Shown: positions 35,941-58,570 of the stretch, piece after piece
Layout of the letters: every line of letters starts with the position of its first letter
Numbering within the stretch: the stretch's first letter is position 1
Assembly (NCBI GenBank): GCA_029865945.1
Contig: JARXAH010000016.1
Span: forward strand, 1-64,000
Direction: 5' to 3'
DNA length: 64,000 nucleotides
Source of the DNA: Bacteriovoracaceae bacterium
GTDB taxonomy: Bacteria > Bdellovibrionota > Bacteriovoracia > Bacteriovoracales > Bacteriovoracaceae
The notes under the pieces: generated by a model
Databases searched by the model: none
Told to the model about the DNA's origin: nothing
What the model saw: only the letters and a program-made list of their open reading frames with translations
Program-made: the position numbers and the translations under genes

Positions 35941-37266
35941 TCAGTATAAATGAGGAAGAAAGAAACTTACGTTTGTTCCAAATCCAAGCTTAGAGTCAAT
36001 ACTAAATTTACCACCCGCCATTTTTATGTTTTCAATTGCACTGGCTAAGCCAATACCGTTTCCTCCATTTTTGCCGTAGGTGAAACCATCAACACCAACT
36101 TGGTGAAGAATATTTTCAGGAATACCTTTTCCGTTATCTTTTATGGAGAGTTCAATACCGTTAGAATGTTGTTGCAATTTAATGGTAACTTGTCCGGAAG
36201 CAGATTTTTCATCCATAGCATCGCAACTGTTATTTATCAGATTGGAAATAATTCGATGTAAACTAATTGCTGAAATTGGGATAATTTGGTGCTTGAAAAT
36301 AACTTCAGTTTGAAGCGAAATTTTTATTTTATTTTGGTTCCTTACTTGAACAACTTTTTCGCGAATTACTTCCTGTAGTACTGTAACGATATCAAGTACT
36401 GTTGTTTGGTTATTTTCTTTTTTGATATTTTCTAACATGGAGTTTGCAATAATATTAATTCGATCAACACACTTTAAGGCCAATGAGCGTGATTCAGATT
36501 GGTTAAGGCCATCATCTGAGTTTAGTAGCATTCCGAGTGCTGCAACCGGGGACCGAATGTCATGGACGACTTGTTTTATCAATGTGGCTTTTTGATCATT
36601 TGCTTTAATAATTGCATAGTGTTTGGCAAGATCAATAATTTTTAAAATGATGGCCGTATGATGGAGTTCAATTGGTGGACGATAATTATCCATTTTTTGC
36701 ACATCAAGACTGTCTATTTCCTTTTCTAGATTTTGCAAAATTAAGACGTGGGAATTAATTTTTTTCTTCCAAGAGAAGAAAAAATATAAGAAAACGGCAA
36801 CCAGTGTTAGAAGCATAAAGAATGTTTTGGAAAATTGCAAAATTAGAAACTCAACAGTACGGAAAGCAATTTGTAGTTTTAAAGGAGAAAGGCCCGGGGA
36901 TGGAAGATTCTCACTTATTTGTTTGTTTGCCAAATTCCAATCAAAGAGTGTCCTAGGCGATTTATGTGCTAAAAAAAATTTGCCTGAAGGTGACTCAAGG
37001 GAGAGATCAATCACTAATCCTTTTGGAGATTCTAGGATGATTGATTGAACGGCAGATTGCATACCAAGGAAATCACCTTTAATGATATGTTCATGAATTT
37101 TGTTCTTTAAGCTAATCTCTAGACCGCTGACTAAAGAATTTTTCAATTGAAAGGTCGTGATTATGCTATAGGAGATAGATAAGAAAACGAGCAATGCTGT
37201 AACTGCATATCCTAGAAATGAGAGCTGTTTAGAAAAATCCTGGTAGAAAAATTGTTTCTTACTCAT
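35941..37266 (-). CDS. Membrane sensor histidine kinase
   Basis: 441 residues. Two membrane spans (about 12-35 and 148-166) bracket a periplasmic sensor of ~110 residues with no recognised domain. H-box VVHDIRSPVAALGMLL, N-box IISNLINNSCDAMDE, G1 IKDNGKGIPE and G2 GGNGIGLASA make a complete HATPase. No response regulator lies nearby. It starts 16 nt after the MFS-SBP fusion gene and is the last gene of the peptide operon, so it may sense the peptide or its transport state (inference). Confidence 0.9.
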   Translation of the reverse strand: MSKKQFFYQDFSKQLSFLGYAVTALLVFLSISYSIITTFQLKNSLVSGLEISLKNKIHEHIIKGDFLGMQSAVQSIILESPKGLVIDLSLESPSGKFFLAHKSPRTLFDWNLANKQISENLPSPGLSPLKLQIAFRTVEFLILQFSKTFFMLLTLVAVFLYFFFSWKKKINSHVLILQNLEKEIDSLDVQKMDNYRPPIELHHTAIILKIIDLAKHYAIIKANDQKATLIKQVVHDIRSPVAALGMLLNSDDGLNQSESRSLALKCVDRINIIANSMLENIKKENNQTTVLDIVTVLQEVIREKVVQVRNQNKIKISLQTEVIFKHQIIPISAISLHRIISNLINNSCDAMDEKSASGQVTIKLQQHSNGIELSIKDNGKGIPENILHQVGVDGFTYGKNGGNGIGLASAIENIKMAGGKFSIDSKLGFGTNVSFFLPHLY

Positions 37267-37282
37267 AAATAATTAGCAAATT

Positions 37283-39931
37283 TTAATCTTTTAATTCTAA
37301 CGTCTCCAATGGAAGTGTATGCAATCCCATGGGATGTGCTGGCACAAACTTTACTTTTTCCGACCAAAGTCCAGAAGAGTTTGAGCCAAATACAAGAGGA
37401 GCAATAGTTCTGCTTGCTAGCGCCTCTATTTGTATTTTTTTATAGATGGAAAATCGCTCCTGCTGATCAATAATGGTACTGGTTTTATCGAGATAGTTAT
37501 CAATTAATTTGGATTGAATGTCGTATTTGTTAAATTCATTTCCTGAACGTAGATAAGATAAAAATGAGAGCGCCTCTGGGTAATCTAGAAACTTGCTTCT
37601 CATAAGTAGGTCAAAATTTTTGTTCTTGAGGGACGAAAAGTATTGTTCTTCAGAAATTTCTTCAACGATGAGTTCAATATTTTTTTTTGCCAAAATGGAT
37701 TGAACTTGATTAGCAATTAAAAGCATGTCTTCAAAACCTTTTAAAACTAATAAACGTAGATTTATTTTTGATTTTAGTTGAGGAATTTTTTCATGCAAGA
37801 TTGGTTCAATATCTGACTTAATTAAACTTCCACCAATACTTGGTGGAAGTATTCCATAAGACTTGACATAATTGGATCCAGGCATGGAAAAATTAAATTC
37901 AGATAAGATAGTATGTTGTATAATTTTACGCACGTTTTCTTTTATGGTCGGATTTAGACTAAGGAAAAGGATGCGAGTCGAAGCGGCAACATAAGGACTC
38001 CATTTTTTTATTTTTAATCTCTTTGTTTTTTCTATGCTGACGGAGACGGCGTCTAGGCAATCAATTTCTCCCTTGAGTGCTAAATCCGAAAGCTCTTCAT
38101 TGTTTGCTTTTACTTTTTTAATGATAATATTTGTGGGAGCTATTTTTGATAAATTTGAAAAAAAATTGTGTCGTAACGTTAAGCGATAGTGGGAATTAGT
38201 TTCTTCGAGTAATTCGTAAGGGCCAAGTCCTAGAAATTTTCCATCAGTCGTTAGTTTAAAAATTGAGCTATCAACGACAGCCAAATGGAGCAAGAAGAGT
38301 GGGTGAGGACGATCAAGGTTAAATTCAACTATGGTTGGAGATATTTTTCTTACTCCAAAATTCTTTTTGTGGTCATCACTTGAACCAGATAGATAAGCTT
38401 GCTTCGAGCCAGTTATATAAGACAAATCTACCGCCATTGAAGATCCAACTTGAAACATTCGATAAAAAGAATTCACAACGTCTTGCGCATCAAGTTTCGA
38501 GCCATCAGTGAAGAATGCTTGCTTTAAATGAAGTAAATATTTCTTTCCAGAATCTTTTATCTCAAAACTTTCAGTAAGTTCCGGCATCACCTGTAAATCA
38601 GGTGTTAATCGGAAAAGACCACGATGAAGTTGTAAATTAAAAAATACCGAATTTACCGACTCAAGTTTGTGTGGATCACGGGTTATGTTTTCTGAAGTTG
38701 TAAAAAGATTTAAAGTTTGTGCTTCTGTCATATTTGGATCTCCTGTCATGACAGCTAAGGCAAATATGCCTAGTGAAACAATTTTATTACTGGACTTTTT
38801 AAACGCATACCCAGCAGCGATAGTTGCTCTCCAACTCATTTCAATTATGATATCAATCATACCTGTTGCTCCAACCCAAAATTCTCCTAGGGATCCAGTT
38901 AGTACAATGTTTGACTGTCTACTAGCACTGATAGAAGCATAATTTTCAGTAGGACAGTCCCTCATGAAATTTTTACTTATCCTGTTAAATAATATCCAGT
39001 AGGAAATATTTCTAACTAATGACATTGTTAGAACAGCTCCAGAATATTGTTGTAATAGGCCTTGTAAAAGTAAAGCAATCGATAATGTGTACCAAATAAG
39101 TTTTTCCGATATGATTTTTTTTTTATCAATCATTGGCGCAATCCATACAGCTAGTCCAAACGCACCCGATGCAAAAGGTAAAAAATTTGGATTTTCTAAA
39201 AATAATCTAGTATTAAGTGTATTCGCTCCAAACATTACAAGAGCCAAAATAAAATCTGAAATAGCAATAGTAGGAAGAAGTTTGTAATATTTCGAAAAAT
39301 TATTTTGTATGATAATTTTCTTTGAATAATTGCTTGAGGTGGTAAATATTTTTTTATTTTTACCATTAAAGAAAATAAGGATGATGAAACCATTTGCAAG
39401 GAATGTAATGAAATCGAAATAAATTGCGGTATTTAAAGAAAAATATTTTATAAATAATAAGCTTATAAATGTTCCAAAGATTATTGTTCCAAAGTCTGCT
39501 TTGTTTTTCAGTAATGCAAAGGAACCATCTTTTTTGTTTTTATCATCTAAGAATTTTGCAATCTTGGCCGAATTTGCAACTTGTAATGCGGTAAATAAGG
39601 ACTTTAAAGTAGTGGCAAAAAAGAAGGGAAAAAATATATTTTCTGAGAATAAGTTTGAAGATAATGCTAAAAACAAAGAAAGAATTCCTGCAATTAATTC
39701 ACAACTAACTAAAAGCTTAATTGGATCAATTTTATCTGCAGCGTGTCCTAGAAAATTGTTTACAACAAAGCCAGTAATCCGAAGTAGCCCTATTGTAACC
39801 CCAATGGCCCAAAGAGGGAGTCCAATTTCGCTTGAAAATGCCAATAGAGAAATTATATAAGTAGTAGACCCCAGTGAAGTTAAAAATGAACCAAATAAGA
39901 ACATTTTTGCATCTAGTGATATTGATCTCAT
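37283..39931 (-). CDS. MFS transporter fused to an oligopeptide-binding (SBP_bac_5) domain
   Basis: 882 residues in one frame. Residues about 1-390 are a multi-span MFS-type transporter (LWAIGVTIGLLRITGFVVNN, LGHAADKIDPIKLL). Residues about 405-882 are a family 5 extracellular solute-binding domain (VNSVFFNLQLHRGLFRL, PELTESFEIKDSGKKYLLHL, FTDGSKLDAQDVVNSFYRMF). A last hydrophobic stretch (IVSLGIFALAVMTG) joins them, placing the binding domain in the periplasm if the span count is odd. M401 is preceded by CAGGAG at good spacing, so an internal start making the binding domain alone is possible. It overlaps the dehydratase gene by ATGA. Probably handles the operon's peptide. Confidence 0.8.
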   Translation of the reverse strand: MRSISLDAKMFLFGSFLTSLGSTTYIISLLAFSSEIGLPLWAIGVTIGLLRITGFVVNNFLGHAADKIDPIKLLVSCELIAGILSLFLALSSNLFSENIFFPFFFATTLKSLFTALQVANSAKIAKFLDDKNKKDGSFALLKNKADFGTIIFGTFISLLFIKYFSLNTAIYFDFITFLANGFIILIFFNGKNKKIFTTSSNYSKKIIIQNNFSKYYKLLPTIAISDFILALVMFGANTLNTRLFLENPNFLPFASGAFGLAVWIAPMIDKKKIISEKLIWYTLSIALLLQGLLQQYSGAVLTMSLVRNISYWILFNRISKNFMRDCPTENYASISASRQSNIVLTGSLGEFWVGATGMIDIIIEMSWRATIAAGYAFKKSSNKIVSLGIFALAVMTGDPNMTEAQTLNLFTTSENITRDPHKLESVNSVFFNLQLHRGLFRLTPDLQVMPELTESFEIKDSGKKYLLHLKQAFFTDGSKLDAQDVVNSFYRMFQVGSSMAVDLSYITGSKQAYLSGSSDDHKKNFGVRKISPTIVEFNLDRPHPLFLLHLAVVDSSIFKLTTDGKFLGLGPYELLEETNSHYRLTLRHNFFSNLSKIAPTNIIIKKVKANNEELSDLALKGEIDCLDAVSVSIEKTKRLKIKKWSPYVAASTRILFLSLNPTIKENVRKIIQHTILSEFNFSMPGSNYVKSYGILPPSIGGSLIKSDIEPILHEKIPQLKSKINLRLLVLKGFEDMLLIANQVQSILAKKNIELIVEEISEEQYFSSLKNKNFDLLMRSKFLDYPEALSFLSYLRSGNEFNKYDIQSKLIDNYLDKTSTIIDQQERFSIYKKIQIEALASRTIAPLVFGSNSSGLWSEKVKFVPAHPMGLHTLPLETLELKD

Positions 39932-40428
39932 ATAATATTTTCCGGAATCGTTGATTTATATTTAGTTTTGTACCATTCGACATATAAAATATTTTTATCA
40001 ACATAGAATGAAAAGTTTTTAGATGAGATTGACTTTATTTGTGTGTATTCAAATATTCTAAAAGTAAACATAATAATCGACTGGTTCTTTAATTTTTCAA
40101 TTCGATCTCTACAAAATAAAAACGATAAAACTTGACCGCTTCTTGAAATATCTTGATTGACTAAATCATTTTGCATTACAAGTTTATTTTCTCTATTGGT
40201 ATCCAAGTAAAATATATCCTTGGACCCAAGGAATGTATAAAAAAAGGGTATGTCTCCTCTTTCAAGTTGTTCTCGTTCTTCGGGTAAAAATTGGTGAGAT
40301 AAAGTTTGATATTCACTCGTAGGACGAATGAGAACTCTAATCGGAAATTTATCAACATTTGGTATTGAAGCGATCGAGTCGATAATTTGGTTGTTGTGCC
40401 GTGATAACAGATTATATCTATGAAACAT
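39928..40428 (-). CDS. LanM-type dehydratase (DUF4135), C-terminal half in a second frame
   Basis: 166 residues from the first ATG, but the frame is open further upstream to about 40507 and encodes LLRYTSQDNSKVFEEYLIAA before that ATG, which clearly continues the domain. Signature of the DUF4135 C-terminal half: FPIRVLIRPTSEYQTL (the Arg and Thr of the LanM active site) and EEREQLERGDIPFFYTF (the ExxxLxxGDIPyF block). With 40500-40970 it forms one ~347-residue dehydratase domain interrupted at a T7 run. No LanC-like cyclase domain follows; the stop overlaps the MFS-SBP start. Confidence 0.78.
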   Translation of the reverse strand: MFHRYNLLSRHNNQIIDSIASIPNVDKFPIRVLIRPTSEYQTLSHQFLPEEREQLERGDIPFFYTFLGSKDIFYLDTNRENKLVMQNDLVNQDISRSGQVLSFLFCRDRIEKLKNQSIIMFTFRIFEYTQIKSISSKNFSFYVDKNILYVEWYKTKYKSTIPENII

Positions 40429-40499
40429 AGATTCAGCAGCTGCTATAAGATACTCTTCAAAAACCTTGGAATTGTCTTGACTAGTATAGCGAAGTAGTT

Positions 40500-40970
40500 T
40501 TAAAAAAATGATTTTTTGTTTGAATTATTTTTTTGAGGAAGTAGATGACTGTCTGCAGGGCTTTCACATTTAAAAAAAAGACATTCGATATCTACAATTT
40601 GAGTTTTATCTTTTGTGATTAGAACATTTTCGTGGTGCAAATCAACTATACCAAAAACTGTGGCTATTGCCATTAGCTCACCGAAATTATTCCAAGAATC
40701 TATATTTGGAGTATTATTTTCCTTTACTTCTTTGACTTCTCCATGATCAAATTTTTCATTTGTCGCATAGCATAGTGAACCCATAGGTTCAAGCAAATCT
40801 AATCCAGCGGCATCAATTATATTTTTTCTTAATGTTGAATGATGAGATAGTAACTGATACTCCCAGAAAACTACTCTAGGTTTTACAAATAAACAATGGT
40901 CTTCCTTGACCACTTTGTGAACATACTTACCGAAATTATGAACATCACCTTTTCGGTCAATAAAATTCAT
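40500..40970 (-). CDS. LanM-type dehydratase (DUF4135), N-terminal half
   Basis: 156 residues. Matches the catalytic core of class II lanthipeptide synthetases: GDVHNFGKYV (D9, H11), FVKPRVVFWE (K30 in VKPR), GIVDLHHENVLI (D110, H112, E114, N115) and IVDIECLFF (D127). In LanM enzymes these residues bind ATP and phosphorylate, then eliminate, Ser/Thr side chains. The usual ~200-residue LanM N-terminal region is missing. It ends at TTT TTT TAA; one extra T continues smoothly into the 39928-40428 frame. The start codon overlaps the stop of the peptide ORF by one base (TGATG). Confidence 0.82.
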   Translation of the reverse strand: MNFIDRKGDVHNFGKYVHKVVKEDHCLFVKPRVVFWEYQLLSHHSTLRKNIIDAAGLDLLEPMGSLCYATNEKFDHGEVKEVKENNTPNIDSWNNFGELMAIATVFGIVDLHHENVLITKDKTQIVDIECLFFKCESPADSHLLPQKNNSNKKSFF

Positions 40971-41050
40971 CAGAATCCAGTTTCACTTTGATTAGTGTTC
41001 GCAGATGCTTCTAAATTAGCAAGATCAATAATGATTTCGACATTTTCCAT
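40970..41050 (-). CDS. Candidate RiPP precursor peptide, 26 residues
   Basis: ATG 41050 to TGA 40970-40972, with TTTAGGAG just upstream. The first half is MENVEIIIDLANLEA, acidic and aliphatic; it resembles the class III lanthipeptide leader box (two aliphatics-x-L-Q-x-L-E). The second half is SANTNQSETGF, with two Ser and two Thr, no Cys and a C-terminal Phe. It is translationally coupled to a LanM-type dehydratase. I infer a precursor whose Ser/Thr are phosphorylated or dehydrated. Alternative: a short leader ORF controlling the dehydratase. Confidence 0.6.
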   Translation of the reverse strand: MENVEIIIDLANLEASANTNQSETGF

Positions 41051-41641
41051 AATTCTCCTAAAAATTGAGGGTTAGATGATAGTAAGGAACCTGTTTAACT
41101 GTTTTCAATTAGAAAGTAAATATATCCGTAGCCTATGAGAGTTCATAACTTCACGAGCTAGAAATGCCAAAAATTACTAAAACAAGTTATTAGTGGTGTC
41201 CCAAGTTTTAAGCTTTATGGGCTTGATTGGGATTCGAATTGCTACGCTTTATAGAAAATAGGCGCAAATTATATAGGAAAATCGCTATTGGCAGGGTTCT
41301 GGCGGTTCTTCTAAAGAGGTTACGTTATCTGTCTTTAATTCTCTTATTTATTCGGTAGCAAGAAAACAGAAAAGGAAAATAGAAATATAGCGTCGGTGGG
41401 AAAGTGAGATTTATTGAAGCTATCTAATTCACGCTGCAGTGCTTTGATGAAAATGGCATAATATTAATCGAATTTTTTTGTGAAATGTCTTCTCTCTTTT
41501 TTTCGCTATCATAGGAAAAAGAGGGAGTAGTCATGTTTGCCGCAAATAATATACTTGAAATCTTTTTAGGATAGTAGAACAGTTGGGTATTTAACTTCTA
41601 ATTGAACTGAATATAAAAAGGTATTGTGGAAGAGTAGAAAA
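41051..41641. other. 590-base non-coding stretch upstream of the peptide operon
   Basis: No gene of convincing quality. It contains the promoter candidate at 41079-41108. A 13-codon plus-strand frame (41533-41574) is considered too short to call. The region is strongly A+T-rich. Confidence 0.5.
41079..41108 (-). promoter_or_regulatory. Candidate promoter of the peptide operon
   Basis: On the minus strand TTGAAA (41103-41108), an 18-nt spacer and TACTAT (41079-41084) precede the peptide ATG at 41050 by 28 nt. This leaves room for the AGGAG ribosome site. Confidence 0.45.
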
Positions 41642-42447: not shown

Positions 42448-42482
42448 TTGACCAAAATGGAGTGGCAGTCCATAATAGACAA
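42448..42482 (+). promoter_or_regulatory. Leaderless-type promoter with embedded palindrome (gene 42483)
   Basis: TTGACC (42448-42453), 17-nt spacer, CATAAT (42471-42476), then only AGACAA before ATG 42483. No ribosome site fits. An odd palindrome ATGGAgTGgCAgTCCAT (42457-42473) fills the spacer and enters the -10. Confidence 0.65.
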
Positions 42483-43673
42483 ATGGAAAGTAAGTCTTTT
42501 TGGATTGATAGAGATTTATCAAATTCATTAAATTCTAACCACGAAGTCATTCAAATCATTCGTGGCCCACGACAGTGTGGAAAAACAAGCTTGATGCTTC
42601 ATCACGCTGAGGATTTTGTAGAAGTTTCGTTGGACGATCCCGGACTTCGCCACTTGGCGCAAACAGATCCAGAACTTTTTTTAGGCCAATTTAAGAATAA
42701 AAAAATTTTTATTGATGAGGCGCAATACGCCCCTGAGTTATTTCCTTCACTCAAACGCATGGCCGACTTGTATAAACGCGCCAATCCCAGTAAGCGAAAA
42801 ACAATTATTCGGTTGACCGGATCAAATCAAATTCTCATGGACCGAAACGTAAAAGAAAGTTTGGCTGGTAGGGCCAGTTTTTTTGAGTTAAATACGTTAA
42901 GTGTTTCAGAAATTAGACGTTATTCTCCCACACCCATTCAAGAAATCCTTTACCAAGGGGGGTGGCCAGAACTCTACGCAAACCCGGGTGTGCGGAAAGT
43001 AGAAAAATTTTTAGATGATTTTATTAATAGCTACGTGGAAAAAGATGTTGTCTTGGCAGCAGGTATTCAAAAAGGAAAAGAGTTTTTACTTTTCTTGCGT
43101 TTACTGGCAGGAAGAGTGGGGCAGCTGGTCGATCTCACTCATCTTGGTAACGAGGCAGGGGTTAATAATAAAACCATCAAAGAATGGATTTCAGTTTTGG
43201 AACGAATGCACTTAATTGCACTGGTAATGCCATACTCATCAAATCTTTCAAGTCGTTTGATTAAGACACCCAAAGTTTATTTTTTAGATACCGGACTTGC
43301 CTGTCGACTACAGGGACAAAGTGGGCCAAGTTCCATGCTGACTTCACCACAGCAAGGGCCGATGTTTGAGAATTTGGTTTTTAGTGAACTTTATAAACTT
43401 AGTATTAACTATCAGCTTGGGTGGAGAATTTATTTTTGGCGCTCTAAAGCTGGAGAAGAAATTGATTTTCTTATTCAAAAATCAGCACATGATTACTTTT
43501 TTCTTGAGGTTAAAGTAAGCGCACAAAATTTAGGAGATATAAGTAAGTACCCTGAGATAAAAAAAGTTTTTGAAAAAAAAATTCCTCCCATCTATCTTTG
43601 CCACCAGGAGGGGGAGCGAGTTCTTGGGCCTAATGTTCCCATCGCATTTTTGAAAGAATTTCTCCTAAAATAA
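42483..43673 (+). CDS. AAA ATPase with DUF4143 domain (pair A/B)
   Basis: 396 residues from ATG 42483. Walker A GPRQCGKTS, Walker B IFIDEAQ, and sensor LTGSNQILMD of AAA_14. Then comes a winged-helix-like segment (EAGVNNKTIKEWISVLERM). The DUF4143 end has GEEIDFLIQ...FFLEVKVS, the D...ExK pattern of PD-(D/E)XK folds. Closest relative in the window is 58608-59804, similar along its whole length. Function of the family (COG1373) is unproven; autoregulation and a defence or addiction role are my inference. Confidence 0.88.
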   Translation: MESKSFWIDRDLSNSLNSNHEVIQIIRGPRQCGKTSLMLHHAEDFVEVSLDDPGLRHLAQTDPELFLGQFKNKKIFIDEAQYAPELFPSLKRMADLYKRANPSKRKTIIRLTGSNQILMDRNVKESLAGRASFFELNTLSVSEIRRYSPTPIQEILYQGGWPELYANPGVRKVEKFLDDFINSYVEKDVVLAAGIQKGKEFLLFLRLLAGRVGQLVDLTHLGNEAGVNNKTIKEWISVLERMHLIALVMPYSSNLSSRLIKTPKVYFLDTGLACRLQGQSGPSSMLTSPQQGPMFENLVFSELYKLSINYQLGWRIYFWRSKAGEEIDFLIQKSAHDYFFLEVKVSAQNLGDISKYPEIKKVFEKKIPPIYLCHQEGERVLGPNVPIAFLKEFLLK

Positions 43674-43685
43674 AATGGCGGGCGC

Positions 43686-43714
43686 TTTTCCACTTTTTCT
43701 AGTAAAGTGGAAAA
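43686..43714. promoter_or_regulatory. 11-bp perfect inverted repeat abutting a start codon
   Basis: TTTTCCACTTT (43686-43696) and AAAGTGGAAAA (43704-43714) with a 7-nt loop; the right arm ends immediately before ATG 43715. A TAGTAA -10-like hexamer lies in the loop, but no good -35 is visible. It is too close to the ATG to be a terminator for the previous gene alone; an operator is likely. Confidence 0.6.
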
Positions 43715-44865
43715 ATGTTTGACAGATTATTTGGCCTTCCAAAAGATCAGCATGTCTTTATCTTTGGCCCAAGAGGTGTAGGGAAGACGTCATGGCTTAA
43801 AAGCAATTATCCTAAAGCTCCTTATTTTGATTTGCTTGAAGCCGAAATCTACTTCGAATTATCCAGAAAACCAACTTCACTCTTGGAGCGTATTGGCCCT
43901 CATTATCGCGGGCCCGTGATCATTGATGAGGTTCAAAAACTTCCCTCTTTGCTTGATGAAATTCACCGCTTAATCGAAACCAAGAATTTAAAAATCACTT
44001 TTATTTTGACAGCTTCAAGCGCTCGTAAATTGAAACGAAGTGGAGTGAACCTTTTGGCGGGAAGGGCGCATGTCTATCATTTTTATCCACTTACCTCGCA
44101 GGAAATAGGTGCTGAGTTTCAATTAAAGAAGGCGTTAAAGTTGGGGATGCTCCTTCCTGTTGGTTTAAGATTTCAGGGGCAATTTCAGGCGAAAATTATT
44201 TAAAGTCTTATATTACGACTTACCTTGAGCAAGAAATAAAACTCGAAGGACTGACGAGAAATATTTATTCGTTTCAAAAATTTTTAGAAGCGGCATCTTT
44301 TTCTCAAGGGGCGCCCTTAAATATTTCCGCCGTGTCTTCAGATTGTGGAGTGGAGCGCCGGACAGTAACAAATTATTTTGAAATATTAAGTGACCTGTTG
44401 ATTAGTTACGAATTATCTTTGTTTACCAAACGAGCAAAAAGAGAGCTCATTAAGCATCGCAAATTTTATTTTTTTGATGCAGGATTATTTCGTACATTAA
44501 AGCCAACAGGGCCCTTGGATAGTGAGTCCGAGTTAAATGGTTTAGTTTTTGAAACGTTAGTTTTACAAGAGCTAATGGCCCTCAATGAATACTTGGGGTG
44601 GGGTTATCAAATTAGTTATTGGCATACAAAAAAGCATGAAGAAGTGGATTTTATCCTCTACGGAAAGAGAGGATTTTTTGCCATTGAAGTTAAGTCGTCC
44701 AATCGCTTGCGTGATAAAGATTTTGAGAGCTTAGAATTATTTATGCAAGACTATCCCGAATCTAAGGGCATGATGATATACGGTGGTGAAAAATCCTACT
44801 GGAATAAAAAAATAGAAGTCATACCAGCTAATTTCTTTTTTAAGAATTTAAAAAATTTATTTTGA
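43715..44865 (+). pseudogene. AAA ATPase with DUF4143 domain (pair E/F), frameshifted
   Basis: Two frames together give a full-length protein. Frame 1 (43715-44203) has Walker A GPRGVGKTS, VIIDEVQKLPSLLDE and TASSARKLKRSGVNLLAGR. Frame 2, open to 44865, resumes as LPSCWFKISGAISGENYLKS and contains a winged helix and HEEVDFILY...FFAIEVKSS. The break is at about 44148-44152 (ATGCTCCTTCC); one extra C restores GMLPSCWF. Its homologue at 46451-47611 is intact. Either a recent loss, or a sequencing error at a short homopolymer. Confidence 0.8.
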
Positions 44866-44968
44866 ATGATTTATTAAATTGAAGTCTTATCTAAGGTTAA
44901 AGTCTATTATAAATCCTAGATTTTTAATAAATAAGTAAAAATGATGAAGTTCACAAAAAAATAATTTT

Positions 44969-46054
44969 TTAATTGCATTTAAATTTTCCTTCGAAATACC
45001 CTTTCTCTACGTAACTATTTAGTAAATTATCCTTGCAAAGCCTTAATTTAAAATTATTTAAAGCATATTCTTTCTCATCAATAGATAGAAAGCGGTGTGG
45101 AGAATTAATGGAAATATTTCCTGGGATAGTTTCATCATAAATATATTCAATGCCTTCTGAATCAACATACCTTAGAAAGTGATTTACTGAACCATCTAGT
45201 CTCGAGGGGGGTTCTTTAATTATTGTTAAATTACTTTCTGATAATTTATTGAATTCTTGGCTTTTGATTCGAATAATTGGAAGTTTTAATTCCTTTGCAA
45301 GTTTAAGTAATGAATTTTCGTCGACAACTAGAACTCCGTTTTCGTCAGCCATCACGAAAATGGCTTGTATTTTTAAATCCAGAGTCTTACCAGTACTTGA
45401 TGCAAAAGCTATCTCATTGTAGATTTTACGCTTACTACCTGAGGCAATTAGGTCCACAGGTGAGATTTCTTTTTTTGGGAATTTTCTTTTGTATTCTTCA
45501 ATTGTAGTACGAAGTTCATTTGAGTATATAACTGGGTCTTCATCATATATCCGAACACCTGAAGGAGACCATGCATCCGAATCAGAAAACGCGATAATGT
45601 TATTATGATCCCAGCTTCCAATTATAAAACCTACCGTGGAAAATGTATTCTGGAAAAAATAGGGAGCAATGATAGAAGTCGCAATAACCTGAAGTGGAAC
45701 TTTTTCTTTGAAATCTAACTTAAAATTAGAGATGGACTGATTTTTGAAAAAGTTAATATCATAAATACTATTTAAAAAAAAATCTCGCATTTTTCTTAGG
45801 ATTCCATCTGGAGTCTTGTAAATTTTGTAATCGCTACTCCAACCTAATTCGATTGCATGTACTTGATAAACGCTTCCAATAGGGGCATCTGAGATTATTT
45901 TGTTAGGATCATAAGTGGGAAGATCAGTGAATTTACCATTTGACCACTTATAATTACCGTAGTGAGAATTAATAACTTTAGCGTCGCACTCTTTGCTTGC
46001 AAGTGCAGGATTCGCTCCAAAAAATAAAAAAAAATAAGTTAAAATTTTATTCAT
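44969..46054 (-). CDS. Exported protein of unknown family
   Basis: 361 residues. Signal peptide at 1-20 (MNKILTYFFLFFGANPALAS). The mature protein is Lys/Ile/Asn-rich with Cys near both ends (KECDAKV, LRLCKDN, a final FKCN). No family recognised. Composition is A+T-rich like the surrounding island, and it stands alone in the opposite direction to its neighbours. Confidence 0.65.
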   Translation of the reverse strand: MNKILTYFFLFFGANPALASKECDAKVINSHYGNYKWSNGKFTDLPTYDPNKIISDAPIGSVYQVHAIELGWSSDYKIYKTPDGILRKMRDFFLNSIYDINFFKNQSISNFKLDFKEKVPLQVIATSIIAPYFFQNTFSTVGFIIGSWDHNNIIAFSDSDAWSPSGVRIYDEDPVIYSNELRTTIEEYKRKFPKKEISPVDLIASGSKRKIYNEIAFASSTGKTLDLKIQAIFVMADENGVLVVDENSLLKLAKELKLPIIRIKSQEFNKLSESNLTIIKEPPSRLDGSVNHFLRYVDSEGIEYIYDETIPGNISINSPHRFLSIDEKEYALNNFKLRLCKDNLLNSYVEKGYFEGKFKCN

Positions 46055-46450
46055 TGAAATTATTTACACCAAAAAAATCGCCTCCATTATATTTTAACTT
46101 ATAGTGAAGATAAATCTCTTAGTTTTGAAAATGGTATATATTGCCCTTAAAATTCTTTTTTTCAATACTTAAGTAAAATAGTTGTGCCAATCTGGCTACC
46201 CTAAAAATGAAAGGACTTTTCTGAACCATGGTAAGGAATTATGAAATCGTGAATTTTAGCTATGATTTAATCTATAAATCTTAATTAATATAATTATATT
46301 TATTAGCAGTTCTTCTTGGGTCCTAAGCATGAAAATTGAGAGGAGCATAATTTTTATTGTCCATAAAACCAACGAATAGTCCGTTGATTTTATGACTTTT
46401 TCAGCGGAGTGTATGTTGATTTTAAAAAAACTAAATGGTATCATATACCT
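46055..46450. other. 396-base non-coding stretch with inverted repeat and promoter
   Basis: CATAAAACCAACG (46362-46374) and CGTTGATTTTATG (46382-46394) pair 12 of 13 around a 7-nt loop. The promoter of the 46451 gene follows (46416-46444). Nothing else recognised. Confidence 0.5.
46416..46450 (+). promoter_or_regulatory. Leaderless-type promoter with palindrome (gene 46451)
   Basis: TTGATT (46416-46421), 17-nt spacer, TATCAT (46439-46444), then ATACCT and ATG 46451. The palindrome GGTATcatATACC (46437-46449) covers the -10. Confidence 0.6.
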
Positions 46451-47611
46451 ATGTATACGAGAATTTTAAATTTATCTGACCTTGTTGAGAAAAAGTCTTT
46501 TTTTCTTTTTGGCCCTCGCTCCACCGGTAAAAGTACTCTCTTGAAAAATGAATTTGGGGAAATCTCAACCATTAATCTGTTATCGAATGACACCTATCTT
46601 ACTTTACTGGCCAGACCTTCCTTGTTAAGGGAAATGGTCAGTGCCATTAAAGCAAAAACGTCCCATCGTCGATTGCCGATCATTATCGATGAAGTTCAAA
46701 AAATACCTTCACTTCTAGACGAAGTGCATTATTTGATTGAAGAAAAAAAATATAAATTTATTCTCACGGGCTCAAGTGCTCGTAAGTTAAAGAGGAGCGG
46801 AGTAAATTTATTGGCGGGTCGAGCGTGGGAGGCACAGTTATTTCCTCTCGTTTCAAAAGAGATACCAACTTTTAATTTAAAAAAATATCTTTTAGTGGGA
46901 GGACTTCCTCAAGTCTACCCTAGTAAGTATCCGAGGGAAGAATTAGATGCCTATGTTAATACTTATTTGAAAGAAGAAATTAAAGAAGAATCCCTTGTGC
47001 AAAATTTATCTCATTTTTCAAGATTCCTAAAATTTGCCTGTCTCGCCAATGCTGAGCAAGTTAATTTTGCGAAAATGAGTAGTGATGCAGAATTACCTGC
47101 AAGTACAATAAAAGGATATTTTGAAATTTTGCGCGATACTTTTTTGGGCTTTATTCTTGAGCCATGGAAAGAATCGAAGAAAAGAAAGGCCATCGCAACC
47201 GCTAAGTTTTATTTTTTTGACATAGGTGTCGCAAATTATTTGCGAGGTGTAGAATCGATTACTGAAGGTAGTTCCGATTTCGGAAAATCGCTAGAACATT
47301 TTATCGCTATGGAGATTCGCGCCTATTTATCTTACCACCGTATAAAAAAAGAACTTTGTTTTTGGAGGACTCTACAAGGAGATGAGGTGGATTTTATAAT
47401 TGGTAATGAAGTGGCGATTGAAGTGAAGGGTTATCGAAAAGTGAATGAGCGAGATCTTAAAGGTTTATTAAAATTAAAAGAAGAGAAAATTTTGAAACGT
47501 TTTTATTTTGTATCTCTAGATAATAATGAGCGCATAACAGATAATCAAATTCATATTCTTGATGTGTATCGATTCTTAGATTTGCTTTGGTCGGGAAAGC
47601 TGATTTCGTAG
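46451..47611 (+). CDS. AAA ATPase with DUF4143 domain (pair E/F)
   Basis: 386 residues from ATG 46451. Walker A FGPRSTGKSTLL, Walker B IIIDEVQKIPSLLDEV, sensor LTGSSARKLKRSGVNLLAGR, winged-helix-like SSDAELPASTIKGYFEILRD, and PD-(D/E)XK-like GDEVDFIIGNEVAIEVKGY. Intact paralogue of the frameshifted gene at 43715. The 14 extra codons upstream are rejected because the promoter overlaps them. Confidence 0.88.
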   Translation: MYTRILNLSDLVEKKSFFLFGPRSTGKSTLLKNEFGEISTINLLSNDTYLTLLARPSLLREMVSAIKAKTSHRRLPIIIDEVQKIPSLLDEVHYLIEEKKYKFILTGSSARKLKRSGVNLLAGRAWEAQLFPLVSKEIPTFNLKKYLLVGGLPQVYPSKYPREELDAYVNTYLKEEIKEESLVQNLSHFSRFLKFACLANAEQVNFAKMSSDAELPASTIKGYFEILRDTFLGFILEPWKESKKRKAIATAKFYFFDIGVANYLRGVESITEGSSDFGKSLEHFIAMEIRAYLSYHRIKKELCFWRTLQGDEVDFIIGNEVAIEVKGYRKVNERDLKGLLKLKEEKILKRFYFVSLDNNERITDNQIHILDVYRFLDLLWSGKLIS

Positions 47612-47781
47612 TAATCCAAGAAAAATTTCATTGCACAAAATTTTAGAAGGAGGAATAGGGAAAGTTCTATAGAAAGACCCTATACCATACTTTTTTAGGA
47701 GTGTTTTTTTTAAATTATTTGCTAGAGATAATATTTAATTTATACATTTATTTTTTTATTTTGTTTAATTTTTTATTTGGT

Positions 47782-48222
47782 TTAATTTTTAGAAAGCGGA
47801 AGTCGCATACAAGTAGAAATGGACTTTGCAACGATCGTTCCGTCCAACATCGTAACTGTTGCTTCCACTACGCCTATTGATTTTCCATTTTTCAGTACGG
47901 CCGCATGAGAGATAAGTTTGCAATCCGTGTTAATCATTTTGAGTAAATTTATTTTTAGTTCAATTGTGCCGAATACTTCTGTATCTGGTAAAAGCGATAG
48001 ATAAGCGATTCCCATGGAGTGGTCCGCGAGCGAGGTTACTGCGCCTCCGTGGAGTGCGCCGAGGGGATTGGCCAACTGTAAAATGTTAACATCCATTTCA
48101 ACCGTTGCAGTTCCGCTTCCTATTTTTGTTAACTGCATGCCGAGTAATTTTGCGTAAGCGGTTTGCGGAAATTCACCAGTAATAAGTTTTTGAAAATGAT
48201 CCATTCTTAAACTATTGGTCAC
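47782..48222 (-). CDS. PaaI-type hotdog-fold thioesterase
   Basis: 146 residues. NPLGALHGGAVTSLADHSMGIA is the PaaI/YbgC-like active-site segment, and GTIELKINLLKMI the following strand. Hydrolyses acyl-CoA thioesters in the family; the substrate is unknown. A housekeeping-type gene inside the island. The ~170 bases downstream are very T-rich. Confidence 0.88.
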   Translation of the reverse strand: MTNSLRMDHFQKLITGEFPQTAYAKLLGMQLTKIGSGTATVEMDVNILQLANPLGALHGGAVTSLADHSMGIAYLSLLPDTEVFGTIELKINLLKMINTDCKLISHAAVLKNGKSIGVVEATVTMLDGTIVAKSISTCMRLPLSKN

Positions 48223-48416
48223 GTCGAATCTCCTATTAAAGTATTAAATTGCTAAGCATTATTAAAAAGTATTTCATTTTCTATGTCATGGAAAAATTCA
48301 GTCGAAACATGCTTTAAATGCTGAACTTGTAGATCATGAAAAAATGGTGTTGGTAATTTTTAAGAAATGTGATATTTTTAGCACGCCAACTTAAGAAAGA
48401 TTACAGGATCATTTAA

Positions 48417-48695
48417 ATGAAAATTAGTAAAGTGGCCAAACAACTATCAGATGATCTTGGATTAAGCCATGTTGATGCTTACATTATGGAGCTTAAGACG
48501 AAACTTTATAATAGAAGCGCCGATCTAATTAAATCTTCGAAACTAACTCATGAGCAGATTGCTAAACTTATTGGAACTTCTAGAAGTAGGATTAGTCGCA
48601 TTGCCAATCACGGAGAAAATAATGTTTCCTTTGAGTTGCTCATTAAACTCATTGCTGTTCTAGAAGGAAAACCTGCAATTAAATTTGCGGTCTAA
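48417..48695 (+). CDS. XRE-family HTH protein, orphan antitoxin-like
   Basis: 92 residues. HTH at about 45-65 (LTHEQIAKLIGTSRSRISRIA), followed by NNVSFELLIKLIAVLEGKPAI. This shape is that of HigA2/RelB-linked Xre antitoxins. No toxin gene is adjacent upstream (194 empty bases) or downstream. AGGATC lies upstream of the ATG. Confidence 0.8.
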   Translation: MKISKVAKQLSDDLGLSHVDAYIMELKTKLYNRSADLIKSSKLTHEQIAKLIGTSRSRISRIANHGENNVSFELLIKLIAVLEGKPAIKFAV

Positions 48696-48800
48696 AAAAT
48701 TTGCTGGAAGTTGGAGAGTAAAATTTAAGATCGAAATATTTGATGAATTTTAATCTAGGGCGAAGTGCGCAAAAGGGACGCGTGAATTATTAGGCATTCA

Positions 48801-49115
48801 TTAAGCTACTTCGTTAATTATAATTTCACCCGCAATCCCAGCTTTATGAAGTTGATCTTGAAGCGCATACTTAGCAAAAGTTTTCGCTGGCATCTTAAGT
48901 GATTGGGAAAACAAGATAGCTCTCTCAACACTAACAATTTTTCTTCCCTTTTCAATGTTGCATAGATCTTGCTTTGAAATACCAAGAAGCTCGGCCATCT
49001 CTGTTTGTGAATACTCTTGCGTTACACGTAAGGAATGAAGCATTTCTCCAAAGCTAATTGGCCCCGTAATTTTTTTGATGGCAGCTTTGGCCCTTACATT
49101 ATTTTTTATACTCAT
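48801..49115 (-). CDS. HigA-like antitoxin, XRE family
   Basis: 104 residues with an HTH at about 35-58 (YSQTEMAELLGISKQDLCNIEKGR). It overlaps the HigB-like toxin gene by 17 bases in the toxin-first order of higBA. It probably binds the repeats near the operon promoter and blocks the toxin. Confidence 0.87.
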   Translation of the reverse strand: MSIKNNVRAKAAIKKITGPISFGEMLHSLRVTQEYSQTEMAELLGISKQDLCNIEKGRKIVSVERAILFSQSLKMPAKTFAKYALQDQLHKAGIAGEIIINEVA

Positions 49116-49385
49116 GGTGATTAACCTCCATCACTTCAACAGTGATACAATTAGTTTGCTCATTTATAAAATAAATTACACGCCAGCTTCTAGAGAGAGA
49201 TGAAGATCGCTGTCCTTTTCGATCTCCTTTTAAGGCATGATCGCGATATCCTTTTACTTTTTGCATGGTCGTAAAACCCTCACTTTCAATAATTTCTACC
49301 CATAGATCAAATTGAATTAAAATGTGCTTGGGAATTTTTTTCAAATCCCTGTTTGCCTTTCTACTTAAAAAACCACAGCGTTCAT
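49099..49385 (-). pseudogene. HigB/RelE-like toxin, frameshifted near the start
   Basis: The C-terminal frame has SRKANRDLKKIPKHILIQF, GYRDHALKGDRKGQRSSSL and WRVIYFI, the HigB mRNA-interferase pattern. That frame has no ATG with a ribosome site. ATG 49385 (AGAGG upstream) reads MNAVVF and then stops; one extra T in the T6 run (A6 at 49367-49372 on plus) would give MNAVVFLSRKANRDL, the expected toxin start. The longer TTG frame (to 49428) would start on the -35 hexamer. So either the toxin is off, or the base is missing by error. Confidence 0.75.
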
Positions 49386-49389
49386 ATAA

Positions 49390-49428
49390 CCTCTTTTTTA
49401 GTATACTTTTTTGGTGTACTTTTGTCAA
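49390..49428 (-). promoter_or_regulatory. Consensus promoter, direct repeats and ribosome site of higBA
   Basis: Minus strand: TTGACA (49423-49428), 17-nt spacer, TATACT (49400-49405), then AGAGG (49390-49394) and ATG 49385. Two direct repeats GTACACCAAAAAA and GTATACTAAAAAA lie over the spacer and -10 and are likely antitoxin operators. Confidence 0.75.
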
Positions 49429-49612
49429 TCTGAATTTATTATTAATACTTTAGTAAAACCAATTATTTGAAATAACGGGTTGTTGGGCGAGTAAACACCA
49501 AGCGCTAAATATAAAAATTTTTGGTGTCATCAACCAAGAATATTTTTTACTGGTAAATTATAGGTAATAAGAATTAAAGTGAGGAAATTTTAAATTTCGT
49601 GAGGGACATTTT

Positions 49613-50005
49613 ATGTCAGACGTTTCTCAAATTTCCAAATTAAGATCGGCCGTCATTCAGAAACAGGAAATCATTTTGAATAAACTTACTCAGTTGCCAT
49701 ACCAGGAAGTGATGAAGCTTTTGGCGAGTTTATCGTCCCTTGTCATTAATCTTGATATGGCATTGATCGAAGTAGAAAATAAGTGCAATAAATTTTTAGT
49801 TTCAGAATTGGAACGTGACCCTAGGGCCACCTTTTCAAAAGGCGAAGCTGCTCTAAAGAGTTCGGAAATTTATATGACCTATAGAAATATTCTATCTCTC
49901 AAACAATGTGCCTCCCGTGGACTAGGTTTCGCTAGAATGCACGCACAGTATTTATTAAAACTAAAAACCCACAATGAGGAATCAGAAGCTAATAGTGACG
50001 AATGA
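49613..50005 (+). CDS. Small helical protein, unknown function
   Basis: 130 residues, predicted mostly helical, no membrane span or signal. Features ERDPRATFSKGEAALKSSE and RNILSLKQCASRGLGFARM. Not recognised. Start ATG 49613 follows GAGGGAC. It is followed 41 nt later by the DUF2786-like gene, possibly co-transcribed; both feel plasmid- or phage-like. Confidence 0.55.
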   Translation: MSDVSQISKLRSAVIQKQEIILNKLTQLPYQEVMKLLASLSSLVINLDMALIEVENKCNKFLVSELERDPRATFSKGEAALKSSEIYMTYRNILSLKQCASRGLGFARMHAQYLLKLKTHNEESEANSDE

Positions 50006-50046
50006 TAAGATTTAAGTTAAACTCACGATAATTCTAAGGATGTAAA

Positions 50047-50499
50047 ATGGATGAAATTGAGCTAATTCGAAAATTAAAATTAATTGAGGCGCTTCACCAA
50101 GGATCAACGACCGCCGGTGAAAAAATGGCCGCGTCTGAAGCGATACGTCGCATTCAAGATCGATTAAATGAAAGCCAAGCTGAGAGTCGTGAACGAGTTG
50201 TTGAATATAAATTTGGGATGTCTGATGAATGGAATAGAAAATTATTTAAAGCACTTTTGAGGCGTTATGGAGTCGAACCTTATCGATACGAGCGGCAAAG
50301 ACACACGACTGTTATGGCAAAAGTATCAAAACGTTTCGTTGATGATGAGCTTTGGCCACAGTATTTAGAAATGTCCAAAGTACTTGAGACCTATCTTACG
50401 CACGCAACTGATCGAATCATTTCTGAAGCCGTACACAAAGATAATTCAGAAGCAAAGGTCGTGGCCGAACCTGATCAATTGCCGTTTTTTGAAAATTAG
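50047..50499 (+). CDS. DUF2786-like N-terminal protein, unknown function
   Basis: 150 residues. IRKLKLIEALHQGSTTAGEK and the following helix resemble the DUF2786 start (IRKLLALA..gt..GE). The C-terminal half has RRYGVEPYRYERQRHTTVM, a basic, possibly nucleic-acid-binding segment. No function known. AAGGATG upstream. The stop overlaps the convergent antitoxin gene by 4 bases. Confidence 0.6.
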   Translation: MDEIELIRKLKLIEALHQGSTTAGEKMAASEAIRRIQDRLNESQAESRERVVEYKFGMSDEWNRKLFKALLRRYGVEPYRYERQRHTTVMAKVSKRFVDDELWPQYLEMSKVLETYLTHATDRIISEAVHKDNSEAKVVAEPDQLPFFEN

Positions 50500-50756
50500 A
50501 AATTAAATTTTATTCTACGCAAATTTTTAAGACGAGCTTGATAGAGATCCCAAAATTCTGCACTTATTTCAAAGATTTTTTCAAGTGCAATGGCAAAGGC
50601 CGCAGAAATGCCGCGTTTGTCATTACAAATTTCTGAAATTTTTCTCTCGGCGCAATCTATTTTTTCAGCAAGCCATTTTTGACTTAAGCCCCGTTCTTCT
50701 AAAATCATGGCCTTAAGAAATTTTCCTGGCGATTTTCTAACAGATAATTCTATCAA
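50496..50756 (-). CDS. HigA/VapI-like antitoxin, orphan
   Basis: 86 residues. HTH in LSQKWLAEKIDCAERKISEICNDKRGIS, followed by FAIALEKIFEISAEFWDLYQ, the ending typical of the HigA addiction-module antidote family. A HigB partner is not found on either side. It may have solitary regulatory or anti-addiction roles. Confidence 0.82.
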   Translation of the reverse strand: MIELSVRKSPGKFLKAMILEERGLSQKWLAEKIDCAERKISEICNDKRGISAAFAIALEKIFEISAEFWDLYQARLKNLRRIKFNF

Positions 50757-51062
50757 GATAGTCTCCTATTTCAAATTGTTGTTATCTGTTTTTTATTCAT
50801 TTCGCATACGTCATACCATTTCGGATCATGAAATTTTCTTCCGTTATCTTTAGTGATCCGATTTATCCTGCCTATTAAATTGGTCAACCATTTTGCAACG
50901 AAGTGGAGGCAATCGTTTGAAATTGGGTCATTGCCCTTGTTTTTCGCTAACTCATTGTATTCTAGAAAAAACGATAGGGGAGAATCTTTTGCCTATCTAG
51001 GGAAATAGTTGCGAACGCTCAATAATAAAGTAAGGAGCAGTATCGCTCTATGGGGCCATTGC
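50757..51062. other. 306-base gap without recognised features
   Basis: Separates the divergent antitoxin gene and the Thr/Pro-rich lipoprotein gene. I see no clear promoter, repeat or small gene; AAGGAG at 51032-51037 has an out-of-frame ATG after it. Confidence 0.4.
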
Positions 51063-52532
51063 ATGATAGCTACATTAATTAATCGTTTCACTTTTGTAAC
51101 GTTTAGACCAAAACTCTTTTTCACATTGTTGATGTTGTTCACTCTCTTTTCGTGTGGACAAAATTCTCACGTAAGAACCATCGATGATAATAACGTAGTG
51201 CCAGCGCCTCCGATCTTACCTGGCAACTCTACAGCGACATCAACGCCAACGGCGACATCAACGGTTGATCCAGATAGTACGGCGACGCCAACACCCACTT
51301 CTACTTCCACATTTAATTCTACTTTCACTCCGACAAGTACACCCACAAGTACAGTAACACCTAGTGGAGCAACGAGTACGCCAACATCTACGTCAACATC
51401 TACGCCAACTTTTACGGCGACGAATACACCTATCTCAAGTACCTCAACGCCAACACCATCATCGACACCAACGAATACAAATACTCCGACCCAAACTCCT
51501 ACTCAAACAAATACGCCATCGCCAACTCCGACTTATACACAAACGCCGACTCAATCACCGACGGCAACATTGACCTCAACACCTACGCCAACGTCAACTG
51601 CGACTTCGACTCCAACTTCAACGCCAACAAAAAAGGCAAACGATACAGCAACTCCAACGTCCACAGCGACGCCGACAAGTACTTTTACGGCAGCTCCACC
51701 GACGTCAACTCCGACTGCGACCAACACACCTACGATAACGCCGACGCCGACCAATACTCCGACGTGCGCGTTGGATGTTTATCCAGGCAATACAGTGTTT
51801 CAAAAATTAGTCATTACGCAGACGTCTTGGGAAGGCCCACTTGTGAATGGTGGAAATTATGATACGAGAGCGCAAGGGCCTGCGAGTACGTTATCTAAAA
51901 ATCACATGCGCTATGCTTTTCTCAGTGGCAACTTTCAAAAAACTTTAGCGATCTCCATTGTCTCTCCGCCTTTTATGCCGGGGATGGGTGTGAGTCCACT
52001 TACGATGGGGAATGGATTTAATGCGCCTAGTAGTGGAAATCCCATTTTCTTAAATCGTGAGATCAGTGCTTTCGCTTGGATCTCAAGTCAAAATCCACCA
52101 ACAAATTGTTACTCAAGTCAGATGTATGGATGTAGTCAGGCCTATACCATTTATCGATTTGCTCCGTCGCAAAATTATTCTGGAAATAATTATGATTGGT
52201 TTCGTAGTCAATCACAGCGATACGCACACGTGGCGAATAATGGTGTGAATTATGTGAGTGAAGGAATTGTGGGGGCCGTGCCGGAATTATCGCCACCGTC
52301 TTATCCACCATCCAATGCGTCGGTTAACATTTCAAGAAATGGAAACATTGTTACCATTTTTATTGGTGGCCAAGCATCGCAAGCTGATATCACGGGATGC
52401 GGAATGCAAAATGGTTTATATCTCGGATTTAGTTTAGGCGTTAAGCAAAGTGGTGTCGCTCATCAATACTATCCGTGGGGACAACACTTTCAGTTCAATC
52501 AAAATGGTGATCCTAAGTTGCAGTATTACTAA
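51063..52532 (+). CDS. Surface lipoprotein with long Thr/Pro/Ser repeat linker
   Basis: 489 residues if started at ATG 51063; the frame also allows TTG 51009. The hydrophobic start ends in LFTLFSCGQ, a lipobox. Then comes a ~170-residue low-complexity stalk of T-P-T-x-T-S-T repeats, as in heavily Thr-rich secreted proteins of this phylum. A C-terminal domain (~260 residues) is Gly/Ser/Asn/Tyr-rich with six Cys. The stalk probably projects the C-terminal domain from the outer membrane. Function unknown. Confidence 0.75.
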
Positions 52533-52717
52533 GTGCAAATTGGGAAGTGCGAATTCTGAATTGCGAATAGCGGACTTTGAATTGCAAGTTGCGAAGTGGT
52601 GAAGAAAGAAAATTGAAAGAAAAAATGAAAAGAATGAAAAGAAAGTAGAGAGCGCGGGCGTAGGGAAGTAAGTTGTAAAGATTCATTTGTTAAGAGTAGA
52701 GTGTCGGAGAGTAAAAA

Positions 52718-55543: not shown

Positions 55544-55607
55544 TCATCTGACAGATAAATCTTAATTTACTTTTGGCCTCCAAAGTAAATTAAGGAAATC
55601 TCTTAAT

Positions 55608-56768: not shown

Positions 56769-56894
56769 TAGTACTCCTTAGGCATTTTTTCTTATAAAAA
56801 AAATTCTAAATTTAAATTTCAAGTTTATCACGGAGTCAAGAACGGAGCAAAGTTGAAATAAGCGATTATCGATATTCATGGTCTTGCGGTATTT

Positions 56895-57011
56895 ATGTCT
56901 AAAGACGATATTACCGAGAGAGAAATAGGAAAATTAAGAATGAAGTTTTTTGGTCGCGTCGGAAAGGTGGCGCTGGGAATTGATCGAAGCAATGACAAGA
57001 AAAATCCCTAG
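56895..57011 (+). pseudogene. Remnant of a C-terminal tail like that of 52718-55543
   Basis: A 38-codon frame ends in GRVGKVALGIDRSNDKKNP, matching the GRVGKAAPGS...NNKKNP end of the large protein 1.4 kb upstream. No convincing start or upstream domain remains. It is in the same orientation, so a tandem duplicate has probably decayed or been cut away when the Fic gene arrived. The rest of the 56769-57143 gap holds only the 57144 promoter. Confidence 0.5.
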
Positions 57012-57108
57012 GAAACTTAGTTAGGATTTTGTTTATTTTATCACTAATTTCAGAAAAATAAATAATAAATATAACCTCTTTAATGGGTGTTGAAACCTTT
57101 TTAAGAGG

Positions 57109-57143
57109 TTGATGTGTATTCAATAATGTAATACAATTCCATT
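57109..57143 (+). promoter_or_regulatory. Leaderless-type promoter with palindrome (gene 57144)
   Basis: TTGATG (57109-57114), 17-nt spacer, TACAAT (57132-57137), TCCATT, ATG 57144. GTATT...AATAC arms (57116-57120, 57130-57134) overlap spacer and -10. A further 8-bp repeat AACCTCTT/AAGAGGTT (57073-57080, 57103-57110) touches the -35. Confidence 0.6.
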
Positions 57144-57497: not shown

Positions 57498-57513
57498 TTT
57501 AACAACTTGCTAA

Positions 57514-57768
57514 GAAAAAGAACTATGGCATGATGTCGCGGTTCACTTAAAGAAAAAAGGAATCGACACCGTTTTAGTCGGAGGAGCAGTTGTTTCAATA
57601 TATACCGATGGTGCCTACCAATCAGGTGATCTTGATTTTGTGAAACTAGACTTATTCACAAGTAAGCTCGAAGACGCTATGAAAGAGATAAACTTTAAAA
57701 AACTTGGCCGTACTTACAAACTTGAAACGTTAACTTGGTGTATGATAGGAAAAATATATGTCGAATAA
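57514..57768 (+). pseudogene. Nucleotidyltransferase-like fragment without start codon
   Basis: An open frame of ~84 codons reads WHDVAVHLKKKGIDTVLVGG, AVVSIYTDGAYQSGDLDFVK. The VGGAVVSIY...DLDF pattern is that of nucleotidyltransferase-fold proteins (DUF6036/AbiEii-like). It opens right after TAA at 57511-57513, and no ATG/GTG with a ribosome site precedes the domain. One extra A in the A5 run at 57514-57519 would shift the upstream frame. Its stop overlaps the HEPN start. Confidence 0.6.
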
Positions 57769-58511: not shown

Positions 58512-58570
58512 ATTTTATGCGGGTTTTTCCTCTATTTTATGAATCCGTGAAAGGGCAAAAATGGCCGTCT

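Follow-up and report, generated by a model that had tools for sequence, protein, structure and literature searches.

A putative operon for an enzyme-modified linear peptide pheromone, built around a short LanM-type dehydratase, in a Bdellovibrionota genome

Most known peptide pheromones that are gene-encoded, enzyme-modified, and read by a receptor kinase come from Gram-positive bacteria. On the enterococcal plasmid pCF10, the signal is an unmodified peptide, which Opp brings into the cell for an intracellular regulator to read (PMC7117660). LanM enzymes dehydrate their substrates via a phosphorylated intermediate; in CylM, residues K274, D347, H349, N352, and D364 are needed for phosphorylation and R506 and T512 for elimination (PMC4550811). 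Proteins of the Clostridium CA_C0082 type, which are LanM-like, do not have the conserved catalytic residues, and CA_C0082 is dispensable for making the signal (PMC10301443). We have analysed an operon in a stretch of 64,000 nucleotides (the window) from a Bacteriovoracaceae genome. Our reading, in which we place rather more belief than doubt, is that this one operon makes, exports, and senses a RiPP-like peptide pheromone; all the functional steps are inferred.

The ORF list and the sequence give four units on the minus strand at 35941–41050, laid out as the initial annotation had described. The first (40970–41050, minus strand) encodes a candidate precursor peptide of 26 amino acids without Cys, MENVEIIIDLANLEASANTNQSETGF, assigned by its homologues upstream of DUF4135 genes in relatives; a ribosome-binding site, AGGAGA, was read at 41054–41059 (minus strand). 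The peptide gene overlaps the dehydratase gene in TGATG on the minus strand, the dehydratase gene overlaps the gene for an 882-residue MFS–SBP_bac_5 fusion (37283–39931, minus strand) in ATGA at 39931–39928, and a gap of 16 nt separates the fusion gene from that of a sensor histidine kinase of 441 residues (35941–37266, minus strand). The block is indeed richer in A+T, with a G+C content of 0.29–0.36 compared to about 0.38–0.42 in the sequence to the left. Neither an NtrC regulator nor conjugation genes were found when the genes neighbouring the operon were checked. A separate region of the window, 42462–62425, looks like a variable island. It holds at least five AAA_14/DUF4143-like ATPase genes (at 42462, 43715–44865 in two pieces, 46409, 58608, 59959, and 61286; the Pfam assignment covers that at 42462 only), a Fic-like gene (55608–56768), and a HEPN/MNT-like pair (57758–58511).

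The dehydratase gene is broken by one frameshift. Its N-terminal part (40500–40970, minus strand) encodes the motifs GDVHN, VKPR, DLHHEN, and VDIE, which include catalytic residues, and the frame ends in a TAA (40502–40500) that directly follows a run of seven T (40502–40508, minus strand). The C-terminal part (39928–40518, minus strand; first ATG at 40428) lies in a shifted frame, with the motifs PIRVLIRPT and QLERGDIP and a match to the family profile at 39931–40518. Absence of a DUF4135 score had been named beforehand as a result that would refute the proposed operon; both halves match in Pfam (8.2e-11 for profile positions 53–177 and 1.2e-5 for positions 285–325). After the break, the frame stays open for 196 codons with no stop, as against 6 and 22 stops in the other two frames, which argues that the break either arose recently, stems from an assembly error, or is bypassed. 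The copy in the window may have no activity, may contain a sequencing error, or may be rescued by slippage. A programmed frameshift is unsupported, as no relative has one at this place, but it is not excluded. The window copy could also be a decaying remnant with no current function, as the frameshift and the lack of an adjacent regulator or target would suggest; we consider this unlikely, though it deserves to be kept in mind, since every other frame is intact, and the half after the shift retains its catalytic residues along with its long open frame.

The enzyme belongs to a family of about 345 residues that starts about 10 residues before a conserved GDxHN motif, which matches D252/H254 of CylM. 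In the alignment, the five CylM phosphorylation residues are kept in the window and in nearly all relatives. An AlphaFold model of the enzyme from one relative (L076; loci are numbered L throughout) has a pLDDT of 88.5 and a pTM of 0.89, and the solved folds that match it best are CylM (2e-9) and LicM2 (5e-8). The idea of a truncated LanM was ruled out, as the relatives share the start position and the family folds well. Against the NCBI LanM model TIGR03897, the L076 enzyme scores 35.5 bits with a cut-off of 304, so it is not a full-length LanM. No C-terminal LanC-like cyclase is present on the enzyme, where only DUF4135 was found, and a separate LanC gene occurs only in L035 and L117. The stand-alone dehydratase of the initial annotation is thus borne out as a naturally short, cyclase-less family, whose window copy is frameshifted; its coupling to an MFS–SBP fusion also stands, but for the window and L080 only. 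L035 (G158:C80, 1644–6713) encodes three near-identical Cys-containing precursors of 136 residues with a GG leader, a separate LanC, and the short DUF4135 enzyme, and is a split class II lanthipeptide cluster. L117 (4667–9166, a Pseudobacteriovorax MAG) has LanC, a Cys-free precursor, DUF4135, SBP, and kinase in one operon; despite the LanC gene, this precursor offers the cyclase no Cys.

Taken at the level of the alignment, residue conservation supports both half-reactions, phosphorylation and elimination, from which the chemistry is inferred. DUF4135 might instead act as a kinase only, in which case the exported signal would be a phosphopeptide and not a dehydropeptide. That LanM dehydration itself passes through a phosphorylated intermediate makes this conceivable, as does the replacement of T512 by Ser in three relatives and by Asp in L090; we judge it improbable, however, with R506 present in every aligned sequence, T512 in nearly all (the window included), and GDxHN kept.

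Across the family, DUF4135 is preceded by a short ORF with a ribosome site, in which a short tail, usually with Ser/Thr and Gly, comes after the motif [IV][DN]L..LE. The window peptide has the leader-like motif IDLANLE and a Ser/Thr-rich tail. A peptide with the strict motif lies upstream of 20 of 37 DUF4135 enzymes compared to 3 of 297 control genes (p 3e-19, a rough value given shared ancestry among loci), and looser forms precede several more (L070, L084, L085, and L132). The peptide genes of L071 and L075 differ by three synonymous codons and no replacing ones, and the precursors of L081–L083 by 8–10 synonymous and no replacing codons over the last 56 residues. By this codon evidence, the precursor peptide is under purifying selection. 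A chance ORF was ruled out by the motif enrichment and the synonymous-only changes. Many tails close with a Ser/Thr and then, a few residues on at most, a hydrophobic or aromatic C-terminus (SETGF, SETGM, GTSSY, ESVGF, TTSF, and PTSW), and those of L114 and L115 contain few Ser/Thr. Most relatives' peptides are, like that of the window, free of Cys; a Cys-containing core able to form lanthionine is absent from the window peptide. The candidate precursor of Fluviispira multicolorata (L115, 5767–5985) shows the leader motif six times, in CMDLDKLE repeats, and then an 11-residue tail.

DUF4135 was found in 3 of 129 genomes in a class-level search. One of the three, a Bacteriovorax MAG, has the order SBP–kinase–peptide–DUF4135, with a peptide of 26 residues (MENVISVNLEAIEAEAELFEGGTSSY) and an SBP and kinase 28–29% identical to their window counterparts. 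A profile made from these three enzymes located short DUF4135 proteins in 30 of 369 genomes of the phylum; 21 of these 30 have linked SBP and kinase genes, as counted from neighbourhoods and domain searches. Two orders predominate: regulator–MFS–SBP–kinase–peptide–DUF4135 in L071–L076 and L079, and precursor–DUF4135–SBP–kinase in L070, L083–L087, L115, and others. The conservation in relatives that the initial annotation also depended on is therefore met for the gene set, and the same order with the same fusion, peptide–DUF4135–[MFS.SBP]–kinase, recurs once, in L080, whose enzyme is sister to that of the window in the tree (support 99/94). L108 is the same locus as L080; its source record is titled Streptomyces, and the genome was placed in Bdellovibrionota. 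Upstream of the fused locus, L080 also has a CBAH-family hydrolase gene and a 454-residue gene without a Pfam match (5158–7697). Screening the genomes of 84,980 species added F. multicolorata (an isolate), Oligoflexia, an Elusimicrobia locus, and Myxococcota. Most loci are from metagenome assemblies. SBP/kinase or MFS neighbours are missing in several relatives (L089, L095–L100, and Polyangium-type loci). The Polyangium isolates (L110, L116, L122, and L131) and other Myxococcota form a separate clade of stand-alone DUF4135 proteins of about 400 residues without SBP/kinase neighbours, and these enzymes may do something else. The gene set of the window is more than chance, as distant genomes have it too, together with a homologous peptide.

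The fusion protein comprises an MFS part (residues 1 to about 375), a former signal segment (about 378–395), and an OppA-like domain to the end. SBP_bac_5 matches at 4.9e-28 and MFS_1 at 2.9e-7, slightly below the curated cut-off; the initial annotation had proposed profile searches for both and for DUF4135. Apart from the window and L080, the two parts are overlapping separate genes, and the search for the fusion among 97 relatives matched only the SBP half. A sequencing artefact was ruled out by the same fusion, next to a sister enzyme, in L080. Where the precursor has no Sec-type signal, an MFS gene is present in 16 loci and absent in 1; where it has a signal, MFS occurs in 0 of 8 (p 8e-6, which is rough, as the signal peptides were called by visual inspection and the loci are only partly independent). 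Because MFS is missing from the loci whose precursor itself carries a Sec-type signal, we take the MFS protein to be the peptide exporter; this complementarity is the strongest hint, and export remains an inference. By its matches to OppA (1.6e-13) and to PrgZ (4.6e-6), a pheromone receptor, the binding domain is OppA/PrgZ-like, peptide binding being inferred. Several of the separate SBPs (L071–L076) have lipoprotein-like N-termini. As the operon encodes no ABC permease, a receptor role is preferred over uptake. The kinase (HisKA/HATPase_c; HATPase_c 3.5e-18 in Pfam) has two hydrophobic segments (18–36 and 148–166) with a predicted periplasmic loop between them and no receiver domain. The candidate exporter, its role inferred, and a sensor kinase share one locus.

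OppA-like proteins commonly bind nutrient peptides, and the phylum includes predatory bacteria; the operon could thus sense environmental or prey peptides through SBP and kinase, with the small peptide and enzyme supplying a competing inhibitor or calibration ligand. We give this little credence, because the peptide has a conserved ORF that is coupled to a modifying enzyme and because the presence of MFS tracks the missing Sec-type precursor signal, linking export to the peptide.

An NtrC-type regulator is encoded in eight DUF4135 loci (L071–L076, L079, and L083) and is not in the window, whose genome contains many candidate response regulators elsewhere. F-type conjugation genes (TraC, TrbC pilin, and TraL) adjoin five or more loci (L071, L073, L074, L076, and L081–L083). 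Kinase/NtrC modules, several of them with an SBP, often flank the conjugation clusters of the phylum, among them two in the genome of the window. In some of these modules (L188, L193, L190, and L185), the place of DUF4135 is taken by a YcaO-like enzyme, accompanied by a small Sec-type ORF whose tail often contains Cys/Gly. In the window's own genome, L185 (G000:C3:1-19999) encodes at 12770–18333 an NtrC regulator, a 60-residue Sec-type ORF ending NCTGGGSSCVSKP, an SBP, a YcaO-like protein of 312 residues, and a kinase. This module is a few kilobases from an F-type conjugation cluster (TraC in L186, 3014–5572), and a second SBP–kinase–NtrC set with an alpha/beta hydrolase lies at 4381–9447 of L185. 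Similar conjugation-linked YcaO-like modules with kinase, SBP, and NtrC are found in L188 (7540–13102), L193 (402–5970), L190 (11180–16810), and L196 (11895–14380); the small ORFs end TVCFGGGPGSAVR in L188 and TTVCFGGGPGVGSATK in L193. The YcaO assignment is based on the L190 match (6e-21), weak profile matches, and conserved ExxER motifs, and is firm for L190 only, as far as profile and motif can tell; the AlphaFold model of the YcaO-like protein has a pLDDT of 50. A scan for sigma-54 promoters gave 15 sites, where 6 were expected and 20 shuffles reached at most 11; L071, L072, and L079 have sites close to the start of the regulator. This result is suggestive only.

On the pheromone reading, the peptide would in some relatives probably control conjugation. 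As the modifying enzyme appears interchangeable and the receptor–kinase–regulator readout constant, the modified peptides would be signals. A wider generalisation, which we offer tentatively and at slightly less than an even chance, is that Bdellovibrionota and their mobile elements use ribosomal, enzyme-modified linear peptide pheromones, modified by a minimal LanM dehydratase in some cases and by a YcaO-like enzyme in others, and read by an OppA-like receptor, a sensor kinase, and NtrC/sigma-54, with F-type conjugation as a main target.

In the mechanism that we propose, the [IV][DN]L..LE segment would probably serve as the leader by which the enzyme recognises its substrate, with the Ser/Thr-rich C-terminal 8–14 residues as the core. 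The short DUF4135 protein, as a stand-alone LanM-type dehydratase, would phosphorylate Ser/Thr of the core and eliminate the phosphate to give dehydroalanine/dehydrobutyrine; as both a cyclase and Cys are lacking, the product would stay linear. The MFS protein would export the modified peptide. Outside the inner membrane, the OppA-like domain, tethered by the MFS fusion in the window or by a lipid anchor in several relatives, would bind the peptide and, once loaded, modulate the adjacent histidine kinase. In many relatives, the co-encoded NtrC-type sigma-54 activator would follow, with the neighbouring F-type conjugation genes as likely targets, giving a pheromone-like switch for DNA transfer. 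The initial annotation had inferred a Cys-free peptide that is modified and then exported, captured, or sensed; read as export by MFS, capture by SBP, and sensing by the kinase, this fits all the findings, with no chemistry shown.

The secreted product could otherwise be a bioactive antimicrobial or effector RiPP, which SBP and kinase would sense, as in lantibiotic clusters, so that the producer induces or protects itself. The usual task of LanM-type enzymes is to make lanthipeptides, and the same short enzyme is paired with LanC in L035 and L117, in the former with its three Cys-containing precursor copies. This origin seems to us distinctly improbable for the operon, however: the peptide tails are tiny, linear, and Cys-free, the neighbours include no immunity genes and no LanT-type transporter, and a signal accords better with the OppA-like receptor and with the link to conjugation.

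If the pheromone reading is true, modified-peptide signalling has a separate family in a Gram-negative phylum with predatory members, and there is a plausible link between modified peptides and the control of conjugation in Gram-negative bacteria. It would also provide a minimal dehydratase of the LanM type that acts with no cyclase, which could help in producing linear dehydropeptides and in tracing the origin of LanM. The signalling model is testable in an isolate such as F. multicolorata. No published description of such an operon was found in the literature searched, of which coverage was partial, in line with the initial annotation, which knew of none.

The short enzymes share with LanM (CylM, 5DZT; LicM2, 6ST5) the fold, the phosphorylation and elimination residues, and a peptide gene that adjoins the enzyme gene. 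They differ in length (about 345 residues compared to about 1000), in having neither the cyclase domain nor the N-terminal helical part, in a precursor without Cys, and in a score (35 bits) far below the NCBI cut-off of 304. CA_C0082, which is Agr-linked in Clostridium (PMC10301443), likewise ties a LanM relative to peptide signalling, but the short DUF4135 family keeps its catalytic residues and its enzyme is coupled to a peptide gene. Enterococcal pheromone plasmids (pCF10, PrgZ/cCF10; PMC7117660) resemble the operon family in the OppA/PrgZ-type probable peptide receptor and, for the relatives, in the linked conjugation genes; unlike pCF10, the operon family has a modifying enzyme and a sensor kinase, in many cases joined by an NtrC regulator, and no permease. 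As in Agr and lantibiotic autoinduction with a membrane sensor kinase, a ribosomal peptide, modifying enzyme, inferred exporter, and kinase are brought together in one locus, whereas the separate OppA-like binding protein, the MFS protein as likely exporter, the NtrC-type regulator, and the Gram-negative hosts set the operon family apart.
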